DNA of 64,000 nucleotides from Sulfurimonas denitrificans DSM 1251 (GTDB lineage: Bacteria; Campylobacterota; Campylobacteria; Campylobacterales; Sulfurimonadaceae). Location: contig NC_007575.1 in assembly GCF_000012965.1 (NCBI RefSeq), positions 1,426,001 to 1,490,000 of the forward strand, written 5' to 3'. Position numbers and translations under genes: made by a program. Below the pieces are notes generated by a model. That model did no database searches. It saw only the letters and a program-made list of their open reading frames with translations, and was not told the DNA's origin. Below, piece by piece: positions 2,365 to 19,442 of the stretch. Position 1 is the stretch's first letter; every line of letters begins with the position of its first letter.

Positions 2365-2470
2365 TTTTTATAAATTTTACTACTTGTAAAGACAAACTAA
2401 CAATAAGTTTTCATAACCTTATATGCTCCAATAAGACATAATTATTTCATAAATCAAAAAAGGTGTAAAT

Positions 2471-2710
2471 GTGCAGACTATACAACTACAAGTAGATGAT
2501 AGTAAACTTGAAACTTTTTTAACCCTTATCAGTAATCTTAAAGACGGTATGGTAAAAAATCTAACGCTAATGCCAAGTGATGAGCTAGATAATGAGACAA
2601 AAACATATATGCAAACAAAACAGTTTGAAAAAGACAAAGCTTATTTTCAAAAATGTTTAGACGATATAGAAAACGGAAAAACGAAAACTCAAACTTTCAA
2701 CATATTCTAG
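2471..2710 (+). CDS. Small protein of unknown function, antitoxin-like
   Basis: A 79-residue acidic and lysine-rich protein. The start is GTG 2471, supported by AAAAAGG at 2457-2463; an ATG two bases upstream is in another frame. The opening MQTIQLQVDDSKLETFLTLI resembles small proteins found beside RelE/ParE-type toxins, followed by a helical region (TKQFEKDKAYFQKCLDDIEN). No toxin follows: the next gene is on the opposite strand. If it is an antitoxin it is solitary. The function is not established. Confidence 0.55.
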   Translation: MQTIQLQVDDSKLETFLTLISNLKDGMVKNLTLMPSDELDNETKTYMQTKQFEKDKAYFQKCLDDIENGKTKTQTFNIF

Positions 2711-2730
2711 TTTATTACCCAAAAGTAAGG

Positions 2731-4902
2731 CTAAACACCTATCAAATCGGTTGGACGACCAAAATAGTAGCCTTGAAATTCGTCCACACCGTAACTCTTT
2801 AGAAGCTCAAATATCTCCTTGGTTTCAACATACTCTGCAACTGTTGTTATTCCTAACTCTTTTGCAAATCTAACGATGCTTTGAACCAAAATCCTTGACT
2901 CATTATCCTCTAGTATATCTTTTATAAGTGAGCCGTCTATCTTTAGATAATCTGGTTTTATCTGCAAGATATGTGCATAGTTTGCATAACCGCTTCCAAA
3001 GTCATCAATCGCAATCAAAATTCCTATATCTCTTAATTTTTTTACAACATGTAAGAGTCTCTCAAAGTTCTCAACACCCTCTTGTTCTGTAATTTCTACT
3101 ACAACTCTATTTGGTGATTCAAACTTCTCTATGCCTATTATTAGCGCTTCCATGATAGATGGATTTAAAAAATCATTTGGTAAAAAATTTACAGAAATTT
3201 TCTCACTTCTTGAGGCAAAGATACTGAAGCTTTGTTCTAGCATCTCTTTTGCTATTTTTATATATGAGCCGCTTTTCATTGATATATCTAAAAATTCTGC
3301 GGGAGAGAGTATGTTTTTTTTGCCATTATCAAACTCTACTATTCTAACAAGAGCCTCATACTTCACAATAGTTCCATTTTTATCAGTAATTGGTTGAAAA
3401 AATGGAACTACATTTTTATGCTCAAGAGCATGTTTAATAGTTTTTTTAATATTTAATATTGTCTGTGATGACTCTTTTGTATCTACATTTTTTGAATATA
3501 TCATATAACTCAAAGAGTTCTTCTTAGCCTTCTTCAGTGCCATTTGTGCATCTTCTAAGGAGTGTGCATGATCATGCGCAATGCCAGAATATATCTCAAT
3601 ACTAATAATTTCATCAACTCCATGAATGACTATATTTAGTGAATTTATTTTACAATGAAGCTCCTCTGTAAGTTTTGAGTAGCTATCTTCATCAAAATTT
3701 TCATCATTTTTCAAGAGGACATACTCATCAGAAGAGATTCTATATACCTCAAAACTGTGCTCTTGTGCAAACTCTTTAAAAGCATGTGCAACTTGAATAA
3801 GCGTCTCATTTCCAACATGTACACCATAGAGTTCATTCAAAAGGCTAAACTCTTTTATATTACTTAAAATCAGTACTTTACTCTTTTGCGAAGTTAAAGC
3901 ATCATCTAGTGCATATCTATTTTTTAAATTTGTCAAATGATCTTTATAGACCTGCTTTGAAAAGTGTTTGAGAATTTTATTGAAACCAAAATGCAAAATT
4001 CCTACTAGAATAAACATCATCAAAGCTATCATAAAAAATAGCATGTATATAAAATTTGTATTTTTCTCCGCTATATCTCTAATATCAAAACCAACAATCA
4101 AATGTCCAAGACTCTCTGAGAGATGATTTTTTAGTGATATATTCATGCTTACTTTATACAAACTCTCACTTCTATTCTCATCCATAAAATATTTTTTTAA
4201 ATTTTGTTTATTATCAATTAACACATATCTATCATCTATCGCTACTGTCCCTTTTTCTTCTTTATTGGAGAAAATATCAAGCAATTTTTTATCAATAGCA
4301 ATGCCTAGTTCCGTCTTAAAAACCGCATTTAATTCATGTAAAAAATACTCTGGTGAAATTCCAAGCTCTAAATTCCCGACATATTTTTCATTATAAAATA
4401 TTGGTCTTGTAACACGATATGTCATCTCAAATTTACCCACTTCAAAACCATCAAATGAACGTTTAAAAAAATTTGTATCCGCTATGAGTTTTCTCTGCTG
4501 GCTCACCTTATCCCCAAAAAATTCAGGCTTGTGAGCACGATAAAGCGTAATACCATCCTCTGAGCGAAATGTTAAAATGTTTACAGCTTTTTTGCTCTGC
4601 TTTAATTTTTTATAGTATGGAGAGACAATAGAGTCTATCGCTTTATAGTCACCATTTGCTACAGCCTTAGATAGTCCATCACTTAAGAGAAGCTCATCTA
4701 AGCTTATATCTAAATATTCTTTTTCATCTTTTAAATTGATTTCAAAGAGTCTATGTGTTGATTCTACAACTCTCTCGAACTCACTATTTATGGATTTTTT
4801 AAGTTGATAGTTTAAAAACAGATATGCAATCAATGATGATGATAGTAAGATAAAGAGTGCGAGCATAAGCGTATTTCGCTTAGTTCTATTTGGTATATTC
4901 AT
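2731..4902 (-). CDS. Membrane-anchored EAL phosphodiesterase with degenerate GGDEF domain
   Basis: A 723-residue protein. TM1 is at about 11-33, a periplasmic sensory region of about 250 residues resembling a double-Cache fold follows, TM2 is at about 286-309, then a GGDEF-like domain and a C-terminal EAL domain. The GGDEF signature is replaced by SSDEY (near residue 388), so cyclase activity is unlikely. The EAL domain keeps its key motifs: EALVR (near 516), VSVNFLPND, VEITEQE, DDFGSGY, LKIDGSL, VAEYVET and FQGYYFG. The expected activity is c-di-GMP hydrolysis controlled by a periplasmic signal. It is a single-gene unit; its ligand cannot be read from the sequence. Confidence 0.88.
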   Translation of the reverse strand: MNIPNRTKRNTLMLALFILLSSSLIAYLFLNYQLKKSINSEFERVVESTHRLFEINLKDEKEYLDISLDELLLSDGLSKAVANGDYKAIDSIVSPYYKKLKQSKKAVNILTFRSEDGITLYRAHKPEFFGDKVSQQRKLIADTNFFKRSFDGFEVGKFEMTYRVTRPIFYNEKYVGNLELGISPEYFLHELNAVFKTELGIAIDKKLLDIFSNKEEKGTVAIDDRYVLIDNKQNLKKYFMDENRSESLYKVSMNISLKNHLSESLGHLIVGFDIRDIAEKNTNFIYMLFFMIALMMFILVGILHFGFNKILKHFSKQVYKDHLTNLKNRYALDDALTSQKSKVLILSNIKEFSLLNELYGVHVGNETLIQVAHAFKEFAQEHSFEVYRISSDEYVLLKNDENFDEDSYSKLTEELHCKINSLNIVIHGVDEIISIEIYSGIAHDHAHSLEDAQMALKKAKKNSLSYMIYSKNVDTKESSQTILNIKKTIKHALEHKNVVPFFQPITDKNGTIVKYEALVRIVEFDNGKKNILSPAEFLDISMKSGSYIKIAKEMLEQSFSIFASRSEKISVNFLPNDFLNPSIMEALIIGIEKFESPNRVVVEITEQEGVENFERLLHVVKKLRDIGILIAIDDFGSGYANYAHILQIKPDYLKIDGSLIKDILEDNESRILVQSIVRFAKELGITTVAEYVETKEIFELLKSYGVDEFQGYYFGRPTDLIGV

Positions 4903-4954: not shown

Positions 4955-6283
4955 TTAAATTTTTGTATCCAGCCATCTTTTTTGCTTGTAAATATAGACG
5001 TAAATAATCCCTTTTATAAGAGTCTCAACATTCATAATTATAAATATTGCAACGATTCCATACCCCATTTTATATGCTATATATGAGGGGATTACTCTAA
5101 AAATCCAAAGAGAGACAATACTTACCTTTAACGTTGTTTTTGTAGCCCCAGCACCTCTTAGAGCCCCAGAATATACAAACATAATGGCAAGAGGAATTTG
5201 AGCAAGACCTACAAAGATAAGATAGTAAGATGCCACCGCTATAGTCTGTGCATCCTGAGTAAAAAAGCCGACTAAAAACTCTGGAAACATTATAAGAAAA
5301 AAGCCGACAAAGCCCATAAATATATAAGCAACTCTACCACTTATTATGCCCATTTTGTAAGCTTTTTCTCTGTTATTTGCACCCAAACTCTGACCAACCA
5401 AAGCAGTAGCGGCTATTGCAAATCCAAATCCTGGCATAAAAGCAATCCCCTCAATACGAAGCCCTACTTGATACCCCGCCAACTCCGCTGTCCCATAAGC
5501 TGCTATGATAGAGACAAAAAACAGAAATGAGATGCTAGATATTCCTCTCTCAAGTGCTGCACTCCAACCTACATGCCAAGCTCTGATAATATCTTTTATG
5601 CGAATAATTGGGATGATATTTAGTTTTGAGTATGGTTTTTTTAGAAGTATATAGTACGCTAAAAGATTAAAACAGTATGCCATAAGAGTAGCATAAGCTG
5701 CCCCTTCAATTCCCATTGCATCAAAACCGTAATGACCAAAAATAAAAACATAGTTTAAAAAAGCGTTAATTGCCGCTGAGACTAGCTTTATATAGAGTGA
5801 ATTTTTTGTATCTCCCGCCGCTGAGAGTGCGTTGTAGATGAGTGTGTCTATAAAGACAAGAATGATTCCAAGTGAGAGTATCTTAAAGTAGAGTGCGCCC
5901 TGCTCTACCACATCGCCCTGCGCACCCATAATAGCATAGAGATATTTACTCCCAAAATATCCGCCTATTGTTACAAAGATAGATAAGATAGAAGCGACTA
6001 TAAGCAGTGAGTAGAGAAGGGATGACGCTCTTCTCTTTCTCCCCTGCCCTATAAATCTGGAAATAAGAGCATTTCCACCCACAACATAGAGCGTCATTAA
6101 AACATTTATAACCATCATAAACTGCATGCTCATACCAACAGCTGCAAGAGCTGAGATACTAATCATTCCAACCATAAGCATATCTATGAGAATCTGTAAT
6201 ATATCTACGAGATGCTTTAGTGCGGCTGGAATTGCTATGGAGAGTACTTTGCGGGTATCTTTAGAGATTACTCTTGAAAAAAT
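4955..6283 (-). CDS. MATE-family multidrug/Na+ antiporter, probable ATT start
   Basis: A polytopic protein with typical MATE features: GGNALISRFIGQG near the N-terminus, AAGDTKNSLYIK, and in the second half GFGFAIAATALVGQSLGANN and GALRGAGATKTT. The first ATG (6181) would begin inside TM1. The frame is open back to 6313 and encodes the expected leader IFSRVISKDTRKVLSIAIPA, but there is no ATG, GTG or TTG in it. ATT 6283 has AAGAGG (6291-6296) seven bases upstream, so I set the start there, giving 442 residues, a normal MATE length. It overlaps the upstream gene by 16 bases. If ATT is wrong, the protein lacks most of TM1. The substrate is unknown. Confidence 0.82.
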   Translation of the reverse strand: MFSRVISKDTRKVLSIAIPAALKHLVDILQILIDMLMVGMISISALAAVGMSMQFMMVINVLMTLYVVGGNALISRFIGQGRKRRASSLLYSLLIVASILSIFVTIGGYFGSKYLYAIMGAQGDVVEQGALYFKILSLGIILVFIDTLIYNALSAAGDTKNSLYIKLVSAAINAFLNYVFIFGHYGFDAMGIEGAAYATLMAYCFNLLAYYILLKKPYSKLNIIPIIRIKDIIRAWHVGWSAALERGISSISFLFFVSIIAAYGTAELAGYQVGLRIEGIAFMPGFGFAIAATALVGQSLGANNREKAYKMGIISGRVAYIFMGFVGFFLIMFPEFLVGFFTQDAQTIAVASYYLIFVGLAQIPLAIMFVYSGALRGAGATKTTLKVSIVSLWIFRVIPSYIAYKMGYGIVAIFIIMNVETLIKGIIYVYIYKQKRWLDTKI

Positions 6284-6549
6284 TGTGATACCTCTTGCAT
6301 CGCCATTATTAGCTCATTTTTTGTTTTAAATTCTAGGATTTTTTTATCTTTTTCTTCCTCGGAAGGTGGAGTAAAATCAAAAACAAGCACAAAAGAGATA
6401 ATCTTTACCTTGCTACCATAAAGTTCTACCCACTCAAGGCTCATCTCTGCGATATCGCCATTTAGCTCAACGACAACAGCTGGATAAAGACGGATAAGTT
6501 TACTCAAATCAATCTCACCGATATTTGAGTTATAAATCATATTTTTCAT
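6268..6549 (-). CDS. Small conserved-looking protein of unknown function
   Basis: A 93-residue protein I do not recognise. It has no signal peptide or membrane span. The sequence suggests an alpha/beta fold: LYPAVVVELNGDIAEMSLEW, then VKIISFVLVFDF and a charged C-terminal helix (NELIMAMQEVSQFFQE). Its last codons overlap the probable start of the MATE exporter, so the two are likely translated in a coupled way; a purine-rich start context precedes ATG 6549. A role tied to the exporter is possible but not shown. Confidence 0.55.
   Translation of the reverse strand: MKNMIYNSNIGEIDLSKLIRLYPAVVVELNGDIAEMSLEWVELYGSKVKIISFVLVFDFTPPSEEEKDKKILEFKTKNELIMAMQEVSQFFQE
6291..6296 (-). promoter_or_regulatory. 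Ribosome binding site supporting the ATT start of the MATE gene
   Basis: AAGAGG on the minus strand lies seven bases before ATT 6283 inside the upstream small gene. No comparable site precedes the first canonical start at 6181. Confidence 0.5.
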
Positions 6550-6676
6550 ATAAAAACTTCTATAAATATATTTTTCGTATAGTAGCTAAGAGGAGTTTAT
6601 TATTGGCTTATCATTATTGGTTTATAAATGTAGCAATCTAAAAAATAACCATATTGAATCTCTGTGCAAATTTCAA

Positions 6677-6696
6677 TTTCACAAAAATTTCACAAA
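6677..6696 (+). promoter_or_regulatory. Direct repeat TTTCACAAA x2, spaced 11 bp, upstream of efflux operon
   Basis: TTTCACAAA occurs at 6677-6685 and again at 6688-6696, one helical turn apart. Two tandem half-sites on an 11-bp pitch is the usual layout for OmpR/PhoB-family response regulators, and this operon encodes one. A TATATT at 6715-6720 could be the -10 element. Identification as a binding site is inference. Confidence 0.4.
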
Positions 6697-6740
6697 TGTA
6701 CGCAATAATACGTCTATATTTCATATAAGGACCTATTTTT

Positions 6741-7991
6741 ATGAGTAAATTTTTAGCTCTTTTTTTAGCTCTTTTTGGTTTGGGCTTACATGCACAAACC
6801 CTGACGCTTGAAACCTGTATCGAAAAATCTCTGCGGAATCATCCAGATATCAAGAAACTCTCTCTTTTTCTTGAGCAGAGCTCTTTTGGAGTTGATGTAG
6901 CAAAAGCTGACTACTTGCCTCAAGTAAATCTAAGTGCAGATTATAATCCTCACAACACTTTTGTAATGCCACAAAATGGTGCTTTTAAAACCATAACTGG
7001 TGATAGCTGGCAAGTTGGTGCTCAGATAAATCAAAAAATATATGATTTCTCAAAAACCACCTCAACTATAAAAGCAAACGAAAAGAGTCAAAAAATAGCT
7101 TCTCTTTCACTCAAAGATGCAGAGGCTCTTCTTGGCTATAACATTAAAAACATCTACAACTTAGCACTATTTCAAACAAAAGCCCTACAAACTAGAGAGA
7201 GAGACTATCAAACTAAAGAGGAGCTATATAAACAAGCAGCGGCACTTGTTCGTGAAGGTTTAAAGACACAAGCAGATGAGATGAGTATGCTTAGTGCACT
7301 ATATAGCGCAGATGATGCAAGAGCACAAAGTAAAGCTGAACTTCATAAAGCGCTAACGACACTCTCTTTATATATGGGCGAAAAGGTAGAGTTTGACGCT
7401 ACTCTCAAAGATAACAGCATAGATAAAAGAGAGGATTTTAAAACTACAAAAGAAGATGTTATGCAAAAAAACTATGCTCTCTCTAGCGCACAAGAACTTA
7501 TCAAGAGAGATACACTTCTATATAGCGCAGTAAAAGCCCAAAATTATGGCTCTCTCGATGCAGTTGCCTCTTACACACGTCAAAGTTCACTAAACGAATA
7601 TGACGCTTCAATGGTTGGCATTGGAATAAAAATTCCAATATACAGCGGAGGTAGAATCTCAGCACAAGAGCAAATCTCTCGCATAGATATAGAGATGGCA
7701 AAAGAGGCATACAACACAAAAAAACTCCAACTGCAAGAGGAGATAGACAACCTTCTTATTGATTTACAAAGATTTCACTACACAACAAAGGCAAAAGAGG
7801 CTCTCATTGATTCTACTTTAGCTACAAAAACAATAGTAGAAGCAAGATACAAAGAGGGGCTATCAACCTACATAGAGGTGCTTGATGCTTCATCTCTAAA
7901 CTTACAAGCTACGCTAGGACTCTTAGAGTCAAAATTTGCTATACAAAAAATTATGGATAGATTAGAATATTTAAGAGGAGAGAGTGAGTGA
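6741..7991 (+). CDS. TolC-family outer-membrane efflux channel
   Basis: A 416-residue protein with an 18-residue signal peptide (KFLALFLALFGLGLHA) followed by the two helical OEP repeats of TolC-type channels. The opening LTLETCIEKSLRNHPDIKKL, the first repeat end LYMGE, the GIGIKIPIYSGGRISAQEQI turn and the C-terminal YKEGLSTYIEVLDASSLNLQA are all family hallmarks. It should form the trimeric outer-membrane and periplasmic duct of the exporter encoded next. It is the first gene of an operon; the next gene overlaps by 4 bases (ATGA-type). The direct repeat just upstream may be its control site. Confidence 0.92.
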   Translation: MSKFLALFLALFGLGLHAQTLTLETCIEKSLRNHPDIKKLSLFLEQSSFGVDVAKADYLPQVNLSADYNPHNTFVMPQNGAFKTITGDSWQVGAQINQKIYDFSKTTSTIKANEKSQKIASLSLKDAEALLGYNIKNIYNLALFQTKALQTRERDYQTKEELYKQAAALVREGLKTQADEMSMLSALYSADDARAQSKAELHKALTTLSLYMGEKVEFDATLKDNSIDKREDFKTTKEDVMQKNYALSSAQELIKRDTLLYSAVKAQNYGSLDAVASYTRQSSLNEYDASMVGIGIKIPIYSGGRISAQEQISRIDIEMAKEAYNTKKLQLQEEIDNLLIDLQRFHYTTKAKEALIDSTLATKTIVEARYKEGLSTYIEVLDASSLNLQATLGLLESKFAIQKIMDRLEYLRGESE

Positions 7992-9133
7992 AAAATTACT
8001 TAAAATATATAATACCAGGAGTTATAGTAGTCGCTATTGGAGCTATTTTTTACAATAAAGTTTATGTTGTAAAATCAACATTTCAAACTATAAAACCCTC
8101 AATTGGTGAGTTACATGTAACTATCCGTGGTATAGGAAATGTGGACGCTAAAAATATCTACAACATCACAGCACAGAGTGGCGGGAAGATAAATGAGATT
8201 TTTTTTGACGAGGGCGATTTTGTAAAAAAAGGAGACCTGCTCCTTATTATAGATAGCGTAGATATGCCTCTTTTAGTTGAAGAAGCAAAAGCCTCACTGC
8301 TGAAAGCTGGGTTTGAAGCATCATCTTCAAAAGAGAGCAAAGAGGCTCTTGAAGCTCAAAGAACTCTTATAGAATCAACTCACGCAAGATACAAAAAACT
8401 CTTAGAGCAGAAGTACTTATCTCAAGCAGAGTATGACAAAGCAAAGAGTGATTTAACCAATATAGATGCTCAAATAGCCTCTGCAAAAGCTAAAATTGCA
8501 TCTGCATCATCTGAAGAGTTACGACTTAAAAAGAGCATAGAAGCACTTAAAGAGAAGCTTCAAAGATTTAAAATTTACTCTCCAGTAGATGGATATATAA
8601 TCTCAAAAGATGCTGAGCTTGCCTCTTACGTTCTGCCCTCTTCTACTATTTTTAAAATCGTTGATCCAAAAACACTCTGGATTCGTACAAATATTGATGA
8701 GAGAGTAGCCTCAGAGCTAAAAGTAGGGCAAAAGGCAACGATCAACTTAAGATCTAAACCAAACGAAAATATCCCTGCAACGCTTCAAAGAGTTGTAGCA
8801 ACGAGCAACGCCGTAACACTCGAGAGAGAGATAAATGTCGGTTTTGATGTTACTCCAGATAAATTTTACATAAATGAACAAGCAGAGGTACATGTAGAAG
8901 TTGCAACATATAAAGACGCTATAAAAATACCTGCCAAACTTCTTAGAACTTACAAAGAGCAAAGAGGCGTTTGGGTAGCTGATGGGGATAGCGCTCTCTT
9001 TAAACCTATAGAAATTTTGGCACAAAATGACAACGAAGTTGCTGTTAAATCTGGAATAAGCGCAGAGGCAGAACTTCTCGAACTAGATATAAGTAAAAAA
9101 CCTCTAAGCAATGGAATGAAGATTTTTAGATGA
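7988..9133 (+). CDS. Membrane-fusion (HlyD/MacA-type) periplasmic adaptor
   Basis: A 381-residue protein: N-terminal membrane anchor (about 5-25), a split lipoyl domain (IYNITAQSGGKINEIFFDEG before, RFKIYSPVDGYIISKDAELA after), a long alpha-helical hairpin in between (about 90-185, rich in Ala, Lys and Glu), then a beta-barrel segment (LWIRTNIDERVASELKVGQK). This order is that of MacA/HlyD adaptors that link an inner-membrane transporter to TolC. It overlaps the channel gene by 4 bases and the permease gene by 4 bases, so the exporter is co-translated. Confidence 0.92.
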   Translation: MKNYLKYIIPGVIVVAIGAIFYNKVYVVKSTFQTIKPSIGELHVTIRGIGNVDAKNIYNITAQSGGKINEIFFDEGDFVKKGDLLLIIDSVDMPLLVEEAKASLLKAGFEASSSKESKEALEAQRTLIESTHARYKKLLEQKYLSQAEYDKAKSDLTNIDAQIASAKAKIASASSEELRLKKSIEALKEKLQRFKIYSPVDGYIISKDAELASYVLPSSTIFKIVDPKTLWIRTNIDERVASELKVGQKATINLRSKPNENIPATLQRVVATSNAVTLEREINVGFDVTPDKFYINEQAEVHVEVATYKDAIKIPAKLLRTYKEQRGVWVADGDSALFKPIEILAQNDNEVAVKSGISAEAELLELDISKKPLSNGMKIFR

Positions 9134-17471: not shown

Positions 17472-18686
17472 ATGAAAAGAGAAGTTAAAAAAGTAGTTTT
17501 GGCATATTCTGGCGGACTTGATACTAGTGTTATTTTAAAATGGCTTCAAGATGAGTATAAGTGCGAAGTTGTTACTTTTACTGCTGATATCGGTCAAGGC
17601 GAAGAGGTTGAACCAGCTCGTGCTAAAGCATTAGCCTTAGGAATAAAACCTGAAAATATTTTTATTGATGACTTAAGAGAAGAGTTTGTAAAAGATTATG
17701 TTTTCCCTATGTTTAGAGCAAATGCTATTTATGAGGGCGAATATCTTCTTGGAACTTCAATAGCAAGACCACTCATCGCAAAAAGACAAGTTGAAATCGC
17801 TCACTTAACTAATGCAGATGGAGTGAGCCATGGCGCAACAGGAAAAGGGAACGATCAAGTTAGATTTGAGATGGGTTACTTGAGCAAAGACTCAACTCTT
17901 ACTGTTATCGCTCCATGGAGAGAATGGGATTTAAACTCAAGAGAAAAACTTTTAGCTTATGCTGAAGAGCATGGCATACAAATAGAGAAAAAAGGTAAAA
18001 AATCTCCTTACTCTATGGATGCAAATCTACTACATATATCATACGAAGGTGGAATTTTAGAAGATCCTAACGCGGAGCCAGAAGATAGCATGTGGTTATG
18101 GACTACAAAACCTGAAGATGCCCCAAACACCCCAGAATACATCACAATAGGCTATGAAAATGGAGACCCTGTCTCTTTAAACGGCGAAAAATTAACTCCT
18201 GCAACTATGTTAGAAACACTCAATAAAATAGCTGGCAAACATGGTATTGGGCGTGCAGATATTGTAGAGAACAGATATGTTGGTATGAAAAGCCGTGGAT
18301 GTTATGAAACACCAGGTGGAACTATCATGTTAAAAGGACACCGCGCAATTGAGTCTATCACATTAGACCGCGAAGAAGCTCACTTAAAAGATGAATTAAT
18401 GCCTCGTTATGCAAAACTCATCTATAACGGTTTTTGGTTCTCACCTGAGCGTGAAATGCTTCAAGCAGCAATCGATACAACACAAAAAAATGTAAAAGGT
18501 AGTGTAAAACTAAAACTATACAAAGGTTCTGTAATGGTTGTTGGACGCTCTTCTGAGTTTTCACTATTTAATCCAGAATATTGTACATTTGAAGAAGATG
18601 CGGTATATGACCAAAAAGATGCAGCAGGGTTTATCAAACTTAATGCGCTAAGATTTATTATTGCTGGCAAAGCAAGAAAAAAATAG
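17472..18686 (+). CDS. argG: Argininosuccinate synthase
   Basis: A 404-residue enzyme joining citrulline and aspartate with ATP to form argininosuccinate in arginine synthesis. The PP-loop [15 protein letters not shown] is at the N-terminus; also seen are [31 protein letters not shown] and the C-terminal signature block [15 protein letters not shown] 17472 (AAGGG upstream) is preferred over an in-frame start 60 bases earlier, which would add an unrelated leader. It begins a long co-directional run that continues into the FTR-rhodanese gene 18 bases downstream. Confidence 0.97.
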
Positions 18687-18704
18687 AACCCGCAGGAGAT
18701 AAAC

Positions 18705-19442
18705 ATGAGTATTATAAAAATAGATATGAATTCACCTGAATTTCAAGAAGAGTTACAAAAAACTATAAAATTTACAGATAAAGTAAATCACCAATTTGGT
18801 TGGGTTTACAATCCTCAAGAAGAGGTAAACGAAGGCGTACAAATGGGTCTTGCTAGAAACAAGATGATGTATGGTAAGCGCTTTTGTCCATGTTTTATGG
18901 TTGAAGTTGTAGATGAAAAACCAAGAAGCGTAGATGATAGAATCTGTCCATGTAAACCAGCAATTGAACAAGAGATTCCAGAAGATGGTGTTTGTCACTG
19001 TGGAATCTACTGTACACCTGAGTACGCTGCGAATAAAAGAGCTGAAATGGGCATGGAAGAAGCAGTTCATACGCACTCTCGTGGCTTAACTAAAGAAGAA
19101 GCAACCCTTTTACTAAATCAAAGAGAGCTAGATGGTGATGAAGTAGTCTCCCTTCTTGAAGCAAGAGAACTTGGCATGGTAACTTTCACGCTTGTTGATG
19201 TTCGTGAGCACATGGAGTGGCAGATGGGTCATATTAAAGGTGCAAATAAACTTGTTCCAACAAGTAGTTTTTTTGCTGCACTTGATGACGCTAAGCTAAA
19301 TAAAGAAGAAAATATAATTCTCTACTGTCATGTAGGAAGCAGAAGTGCTCACTGTGCTAGAATTTTAAGTGATATGGGATACACAAAAATAGGAAATTTA
19401 ACTTATGGAATCGTATCTTATGGCGGCGAAATAGAGAGATAA
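18705..19442 (+). CDS. Ferredoxin-thioredoxin reductase catalytic domain fused to rhodanese
   Basis: A 245-residue two-domain protein. Residues 61-103 carry the FTR-beta cysteine pattern: CPC (61-63), CPC (81-83), CHC (97-99) and an extra Cys103, enough for a [4Fe-4S] cluster next to a redox-active disulfide. The spacers (17 and 13 residues) are longer than the 16 and 8 I recall for plant FTR. Residues about 140-245 form a rhodanese domain with catalytic Cys208 in YCHVGSRS. The fusion suggests electron delivery from ferredoxin to a disulfide or persulfide. GGAG at 18694-18697 is the ribosome-binding site. It lies between argG and rplI, a pair I recall as neighbours in Campylobacter. No thioredoxin is nearby. 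Confidence 0.85.
   Translation: MSIIKIDMNSPEFQEELQKTIKFTDKVNHQFGWVYNPQEEVNEGVQMGLARNKMMYGKRFCPCFMVEVVDEKPRSVDDRICPCKPAIEQEIPEDGVCHCGIYCTPEYAANKRAEMGMEEAVHTHSRGLTKEEATLLLNQRELDGDEVVSLLEARELGMVTFTLVDVREHMEWQMGHIKGANKLVPTSSFFAALDDAKLNKEENIILYCHVGSRSAHCARILSDMGYTKIGNLTYGIVSYGGEIER

Follow-up and report, generated by a model that had tools for sequence, protein, structure and literature searches.

The gene at 18705–19442 on the forward strand of the window (the whole 64,000-nucleotide stretch of Sulfurimonas denitrificans DSM 1251 DNA analysed here) raises the question of what an enzyme might do that carries the catalytic domain of a ferredoxin:thioredoxin reductase (FTR) and a rhodanese in a single chain. 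The ORF and its frame were confirmed; it encodes 245 residues and is preceded by AGGAG, a likely ribosome-binding site (18694–18698). In agreement with the original prediction, Pfam placed both domains in one polypeptide: the FTR catalytic domain FeThRed_B (PF02943) at residues 16–121 (18750–19067; 1.6e-35, 121.7 bits, cut-off 22) and a C-terminal rhodanese (PF00581) at residues 158–239 (19176–19421; 3.7e-15, 56.6 bits, cut-off 22.2). These were the only families over their cut-offs in a scan at E 1, which revealed no flavin pyridine-nucleotide-disulfide reductase domain in the 245-residue protein. The small, conserved gene is single-copy in S. denitrificans, being the only PF02943 match in the 2,201,561-bp, one-contig genome. 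PADLOC returned no match for the protein as a defence system. We read the fusion as a novel combination of domains within a known family, and judge persulfide reduction to be its most likely job.

Conservation was assessed on an alignment of 65 rows, which includes the window protein, leaves out four duplicate loci and is without some FTR-only genes masked by antisense ORFs (e.g. L041, L053, L055, L060, L064 and L067), which the survey of FTR-only loci and the FTR tree below do take in. Rhodanese residues were counted over the 52 rows that remain once 10 FTR-only rows and 3 TusA-like ones are excluded. The six cysteines of C61-P-C63 (18885–18893), C81-P-C83 (18945–18953) and C97-H98-C99 (18993–19001) are invariant in all 65 rows, and H98 is kept in 64. 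In the rhodanese half, C208 and the G211-S212-R213-S214 (GSRS) loop, which lie in the active loop C208-H-V-G-S-R-S214 (19326–19346), are invariant in all 52 rhodanese-bearing rows. Loss of the cysteines in orthologues, which by the original prediction's own terms would have refuted it, was therefore seen in neither domain, and both halves are probably catalytic. By homology with plant-type FTR, we take C61, C81, C83 and C97 to be the cluster ligands and C63 and C99 to be the active-site thiols that form the redox pair.

A longer cysteine spacing and an extra Cys103 had been put forward as features that separate the protein from plant FTR. In the window protein, 17 residues separate the first two CXC pairs and 13 the last two; hand counts on alignments gave 16 and 8 residues in the plant chain 7bzk and 14 and 12 in the ferredoxin:disulfide reductases (FDRs) 4tpu and 7pwe. 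The spacing claim therefore stands mainly for the second spacer, whereas the first is hardly longer; to judge by these sequences, a long second spacer is ordinary among bacterial and archaeal ferredoxin:disulfide reductases. Cys103 (19011–19013), kept in 62 of the 65 rows, does set the protein apart. Within the tree set it is present in 36/36 fusions, 15/16 FTR-only and 3/3 split copies, and in 0/17 FTR+TusA-like and 0/8 archaeal copies, group counts that make it a mark of the Campylobacterota FTR clade. The linker also contains an H-x-H motif (19068–19076, residues 122–124), with H122 in 45 and H124 in 49 of the 65 rows, FTR-only proteins included, several of which terminate in HEH or HDH.

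The fusion protein was modelled with AlphaFold2 from an alignment of 30 sequences. The model has a mean pLDDT of 91.4 and a pTM of 0.62, consistent with two sound domains whose relative orientation is unsure. By Foldseek, the FTR half matches 7pwe (E 5.3e-5), 7c3f (1.8e-4), 1dj7 (3.6e-4) and also 4tpu. The rhodanese half resembles GlpE, Sud (1qxn), a persulfide dioxygenase and the tails of persulfide reductases, including the NADH-dependent persulfide reductases 3nta and 6pfz and the CoADR-RHD 3icr. With VIA-align, the rhodanese part matched 3tp9 (Z 16.1) and GlpE 1gmx (Z 14.5); the matches listed by this program were all or nearly all rhodanese by range, and the FTR fold rests on Foldseek.

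Each half has counterparts in known systems. Plant and cyanobacterial FTR shares the catalytic-chain fold, the six cysteines and the histidine, but it works with a variable chain, has a second spacer of 8 residues instead of 13 and carries no fused rhodanese. The FDRs of Methanosarcina (4tpu) and Desulfotalea (the glutaredoxin-FDR 7pwe) resemble the window protein in their FTR catalytic fold, their three CXC pairs and their long second spacer (12 residues; here 13), and in 7pwe the FTR-type domain is likewise fused to a partner, glutaredoxin. Unlike the window protein, both are without a rhodanese and without a cysteine at the Cys103 position. Sud, a polysulfide-sulfur transferase (1qxn), and GlpE-type proteins share the single rhodanese domain but have no reductase domain. 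The persulfide reductases of the CoADR-rhodanese type (Npsr; 3nta, 6pfz and 3icr) have the same overall plan, in which a persulfide- or disulfide-reducing domain is followed by a single C-terminal rhodanese; their reductase half, however, is a flavoprotein that binds CoA and draws its electrons from NADH, whereas an FTR-type Fe-S domain takes its place here. In Npsr, the cysteine of the C-terminal rhodanese (~100 residues) accepts sulfur and the bound CoA ferries it to the reductase site, and the characterised rhodanese-tailed persulfide reductases are NADH-driven flavoproteins (PMC7969121).

Applying the logic of Npsr, in which a rhodanese cysteine takes the sulfur and a reductase site reduces it, we infer that the FTR–rhodanese protein may reduce persulfides with ferredoxin as donor, which would make it a probably cytosolic [4Fe-4S] analogue of that flavoenzyme. 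We give this assignment, with its putative cluster, donor and activity, an even chance of being correct. C208 of the rhodanese would pick up sulfane sulfur carried by polysulfide, thiosulfate or a small persulfide. At the FTR-type [4Fe-4S] site, reduced ferredoxin would then supply the electrons with which the C63/C99 pair reduces the resulting persulfide, and sulfide would be released as the product. The clade-specific Cys103, four residues past C99, may aid the hand-over of sulfur.

Beyond the retention of both catalytic residue sets, several observations favour persulfide reduction. The pairing of FTR and rhodanese recurs as adjacent separate genes at three loci and in Sulfurovum mangrovi; in a sister family FTR is combined with a TusA-like part, and at three loci with SelD as well, once more a chalcogen context; 7pwe offers a precedent for an FTR-type domain fused to a partner; the predicted structure resembles FTR and FDR in one half and rhodaneses, tails of persulfide reductases among them, in the other; and at L051 the fusion gene lies 136 bp downstream of genes for 2-oxoglutarate synthase, one subunit of which is 4Fe-4S ferredoxin-like. 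Against it stand the place of the gene among housekeeping genes (argG, rplI, hslVU and era) and not among sulfur genes, the occurrence of FTR-only genes without a rhodanese, and the unsure domain orientation of the model, across which C208 would have to reach C63/C99. Were the assignment correct, a soluble, ferredoxin-linked FTR-type enzyme would tie the handling of sulfane sulfur to the low-potential electron pool, and FTR, which is known for thioredoxin regulation, would gain a sulfide-releasing role.

Several reports touch on this chemistry. One that favours the assignment concerns MBS, for which reduction of sulfane sulfur at a [4Fe-4S] cluster has been proposed, modelled partly on FTR; molybdenum enzymes, too, act on polysulfide as reductases (PMC7684303). 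Two rhodanese-like genes are reported to be upregulated on sulfur in Sulfurovum indicum (PMC10045233), and rhodanese genes to be enriched in vent Sulfurimonas (PMC7952632). No description of an FTR–rhodanese fusion was found in the literature searched, a body that lacks most subscription papers.

Across a sample of 397 Campylobacterota genomes, 172 matched the protein at E 1e-10 or better. These matches were sorted by hand: 142 genomes contain an uninterrupted fusion over nearly the whole protein, and the remaining 30 have rhodanese-only, FTR-only or split matches. The fusion appears in eight family codes of the order (f1, f4, f5, f7, f8, f9, f10 and f11); none is found among the rows listed for f2, f3 and f6, f2 having one FTR-only gene (G167). 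Given this spread over eight codes, the tie to sulfur-oxidising chemolithotrophy that the original prediction held plausible stays a conjecture. Recurrence in 142 of 397 genomes is more than chance would give, and the fusion is no oddity of the S. denitrificans genome but is common to many of its relatives.

Other arrangements occur as well. FTR-only genes without a rhodanese in the stretch read were found at nine loci (L041, L044, L048, L049, L053, L067, L068, L069 and L071). In five of the genomes concerned (G013, G047, G074, G096 and G392), the phylum search detected no fusion elsewhere, which indicates that the FTR part is able to do without the rhodanese. A tandem of an FTR-only and a fusion gene is present at L038, L039, L042, L063, L138 and L151. 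FTR and rhodanese are adjacent separate genes at L060, L061 and L064, and a plasmid of Sulfurovum mangrovi has an annotated FTR/rhodanese pair (LN246_RS15100/RS15105). As for carriage on a mobile element, this plasmid record is the only one to span most of the protein, as two genes, and two phage matches cover rhodanese only; the idea was set aside. At L039 (5338–9377), and likewise at L038 and L042, two small proteins that match no family come after the tandem, then, at L039, an extra rhodanese, and then a CiaB homologue (NF033805; PF25448; identified by the scan of L039) and an 80-residue protein. Such redox neighbours may offer a clue to what CiaB originally did. At L038 and L042 the tandem lies opposite glnB–amtB, recognised by eye.

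A tree of the FTR part (80 rows, 102 columns) has 28 of 77 inner branches open, a bootstrap that has not settled and long archaeal branches; on it the fusion label changes 3 times, compared with a mean of 26.8 after shuffling, and the FTR+TusA-like group requires 1 change. A single origin of the fusion would be compatible with this tree. In three other phyla searched at differing thresholds, with one match listed per genome, 0 of 731 sampled genomes had a match spanning both domains. Of 235 deltaproteobacterial genomes, 33 matched at E 1e-12 (32 rhodanese only, 1 FTR only); at 1e-18, 3 of 249 Bacillota genomes matched, each with a single domain, and 0 of 247 Chlorobiota genomes did, a search that had no positive control in Chlorobiota. 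The fusion of a distant Campylobacterota MAG yielded two adjoining matches (1e-44 and 1e-47), so a fusion in these other phyla should have shown.

The protein might instead be a ferredoxin:disulfide reductase whose targets are disulfides of thioredoxin-like or other proteins; its rhodanese would then serve for docking or regulation and not carry the substrate. The nearest solved relatives of the FTR part, 4tpu from Methanosarcina and the glutaredoxin fusion 7pwe from Desulfotalea, are both FDRs and speak for this alternative, as do the existence of FTR-only genes and a thioredoxin-family gene that is listed second downstream of the plasmid-borne split pair of Sulfurovum; an FDR is also reported to reduce a Methanosarcina thioredoxin (PMC6262447). 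Partner genes were surveyed in 46 genomes (30 with the fusion, including that of S. denitrificans, and 16 others), which were hand-picked from the phylum search and not a random sample. The FTR variable chain (FTR-A, PF02941) was detected in 0 of the 46, with a positive Synechococcus control, so the reported absence of a variable subunit near the gene extends to the whole genome, and a plant-type heterodimeric FTR was rejected. NADPH-thioredoxin reductase (TrxB) matches occur in 46/46 genomes, 38 over the cut-off and 8 just under it, which argues against a role as the sole thioredoxin reductase. A plain thioredoxin reductase would be less needed in genomes that lack the variable chain and have TrxB, and a rhodanese catalytic loop that is invariant in 52/52 rows exceeds the needs of a docking domain. 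We consider disulfide reduction of this kind possible but rather unlikely.

In a second alternative, the protein would belong to a sulfur relay for tRNA thiolation, molybdopterin or Fe-S assembly, in which the rhodanese passes sulfur on and the FTR domain resolves the leftover disulfide. The weaker NCBIfam rhodanese matches do include MoeZ/MoeB- and MnmH-type domains, but these fall far below their cut-offs; the neighbouring genes belong to translation and proteolysis, but inspection by eye of up to five genes per side, most of them without a family scan, revealed no recurring relay partner. We regard such a relay as unlikely.

The FTR+TusA-like sister family bears on a third alternative. Among the best 80 of 462 relatives, this family occurs in Campylobacterota, Bacteroidota, Chlorobiota, Spirochaetes, Bacillota, Dehalococcoidia, Actinobacteria and one deltaproteobacterium. 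Its C-terminal part resembles SirA/TusA weakly, with a Pfam match (0.0096, below the cut-off) in one of three proteins tested; the predicted fold (model pLDDT 90.2) matches 3hz7 with E 0.033 and probability 1.00, and the TusA cysteine is missing in the sequences inspected. In two spirochaete MAGs and one deltaproteobacterial MAG, SelD, FTR and the TusA-like part are fused (L114:3675–5615, L119:3369–5666 and L112:1–1359, the last cut by the contig end). AIRS domains were identified in all three; SelD itself is over the cut-off for L114, the sole one subjected to an NCBIfam scan, and the SelD parts of L119 and L112 are 66–80% identical to that of L114. A survey of SelD reports fusions to NADH-dehydrogenase-like and NifS-like partners, which in prokaryotes are invariably N-terminal; FTR is not named where it treats fusions, and its main text never mentions ferredoxin (PMC4561486). 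In L114, L119 and L112, unlike in those fusions, the extension is C-terminal to SelD. This arrangement suggests a ferredoxin-driven supply of selenide. At L111, in a Bacillota MAG, an FTR+TusA-like gene (4983–5618) is immediately preceded by one whose product (4476–4814) matches, over the cut-off, the C-terminal half only of the selenium protein YedF; the pair looks like a split YedF plus an FTR domain. At L073, in a Helicobacteraceae MAG, an FTR+TusA-like gene (2385–3044) is located ~3 kb from a selD–mnmH pair (6166–7995).

By analogy with what the sister family may do, the fusion protein itself could make selenide for SelD. The three SelD fusions and the neighbouring YedF half would fit, as would selD over the cut-off in 17 of the 30 fusion genomes and its two copies in the S. 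denitrificans genome. By contrast, 13 of the 30 fusion genomes have no selD over the cut-off, which led us to reject selenide supply as a general role, and a tblastn search of 175 loci detected SelD only in FTR+TusA-like loci and in L067, ~5.5 kb from an FTR-only gene. A selenium function for the fusion is thus very improbable. The two selD copies of S. denitrificans lie at G000:C1:861192–862109 and 1217281–1218198; one has an in-frame TGA, likely encoding selenocysteine, and the other does not.

Returning to persulfide reduction, a broader view would be that the Fe-S persulfide reductase operates across Campylobacterota, sometimes beside an FTR-only partner, and belongs to a wider group, undescribed in the papers searched, that couples FTR-type domains to carriers of sulfur or selenium (rhodanese, TusA-like, or TusA-like plus SelD) and delivers sulfide or selenide at low potential. 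We advance this wider grouping tentatively, with the chances somewhat against it.

The fusion was also considered as a stand-in for sulfate assimilation. In the 46-genome set, cysH is over the cut-off in 12/30 fusion genomes, S. denitrificans included, and in 2/16 others; with four weaker matches the counts become 14/30 and 4/16. There is thus no anti-correlation, and the idea is unsupported. CysI is over its own cut-off in 0 of the 46 genomes, 11 of which have weaker matches at E 1e-30, a result that says nothing either way. The cysH match of S. denitrificans that exceeds the cut-off lies at G000:C1:156733–157368 and conflicts with a published RAST table that gives CysI but no CysH for strain DSM1251 (PMC7952632).

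The gene is preceded by argG (17472–18686, forward strand, 18-bp gap) and followed by rplI, encoding L9 (19454–19900, forward strand, 11-bp gap), beyond which lie hslV, hslU and era; NCBIfam identified all five neighbours. Synteny was scored at 53 loci (32 from the same family and 21 from others; two of the 53, L061 and L064, are split genes matched through stops), with argG and rplI counted when they shared its strand and lay within 1 kb. Both flank the gene at 31 of the 32 own-family loci and at 2 of the 21 others (L045 and L047); one of the two is present at L032 and L043, and neither at 18 loci. The place between argG and rplI is old within the family and is also seen outside it. The original prediction had read this position as an insertion. 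That the gene was recently inserted into the S. denitrificans genome, or is an oddity it gained by horizontal transfer, might be suspected from the apparent run of housekeeping genes around it and from the 18 of 53 loci at which the gene lies elsewhere, but it is hardly credible, contradicted for this genome by the two kept neighbours and further countered by the spread of the fusion through the phylum and the few changes of the fusion label on the FTR tree. An rplI homologue also adjoins the FTR-only gene of L055, from f2.
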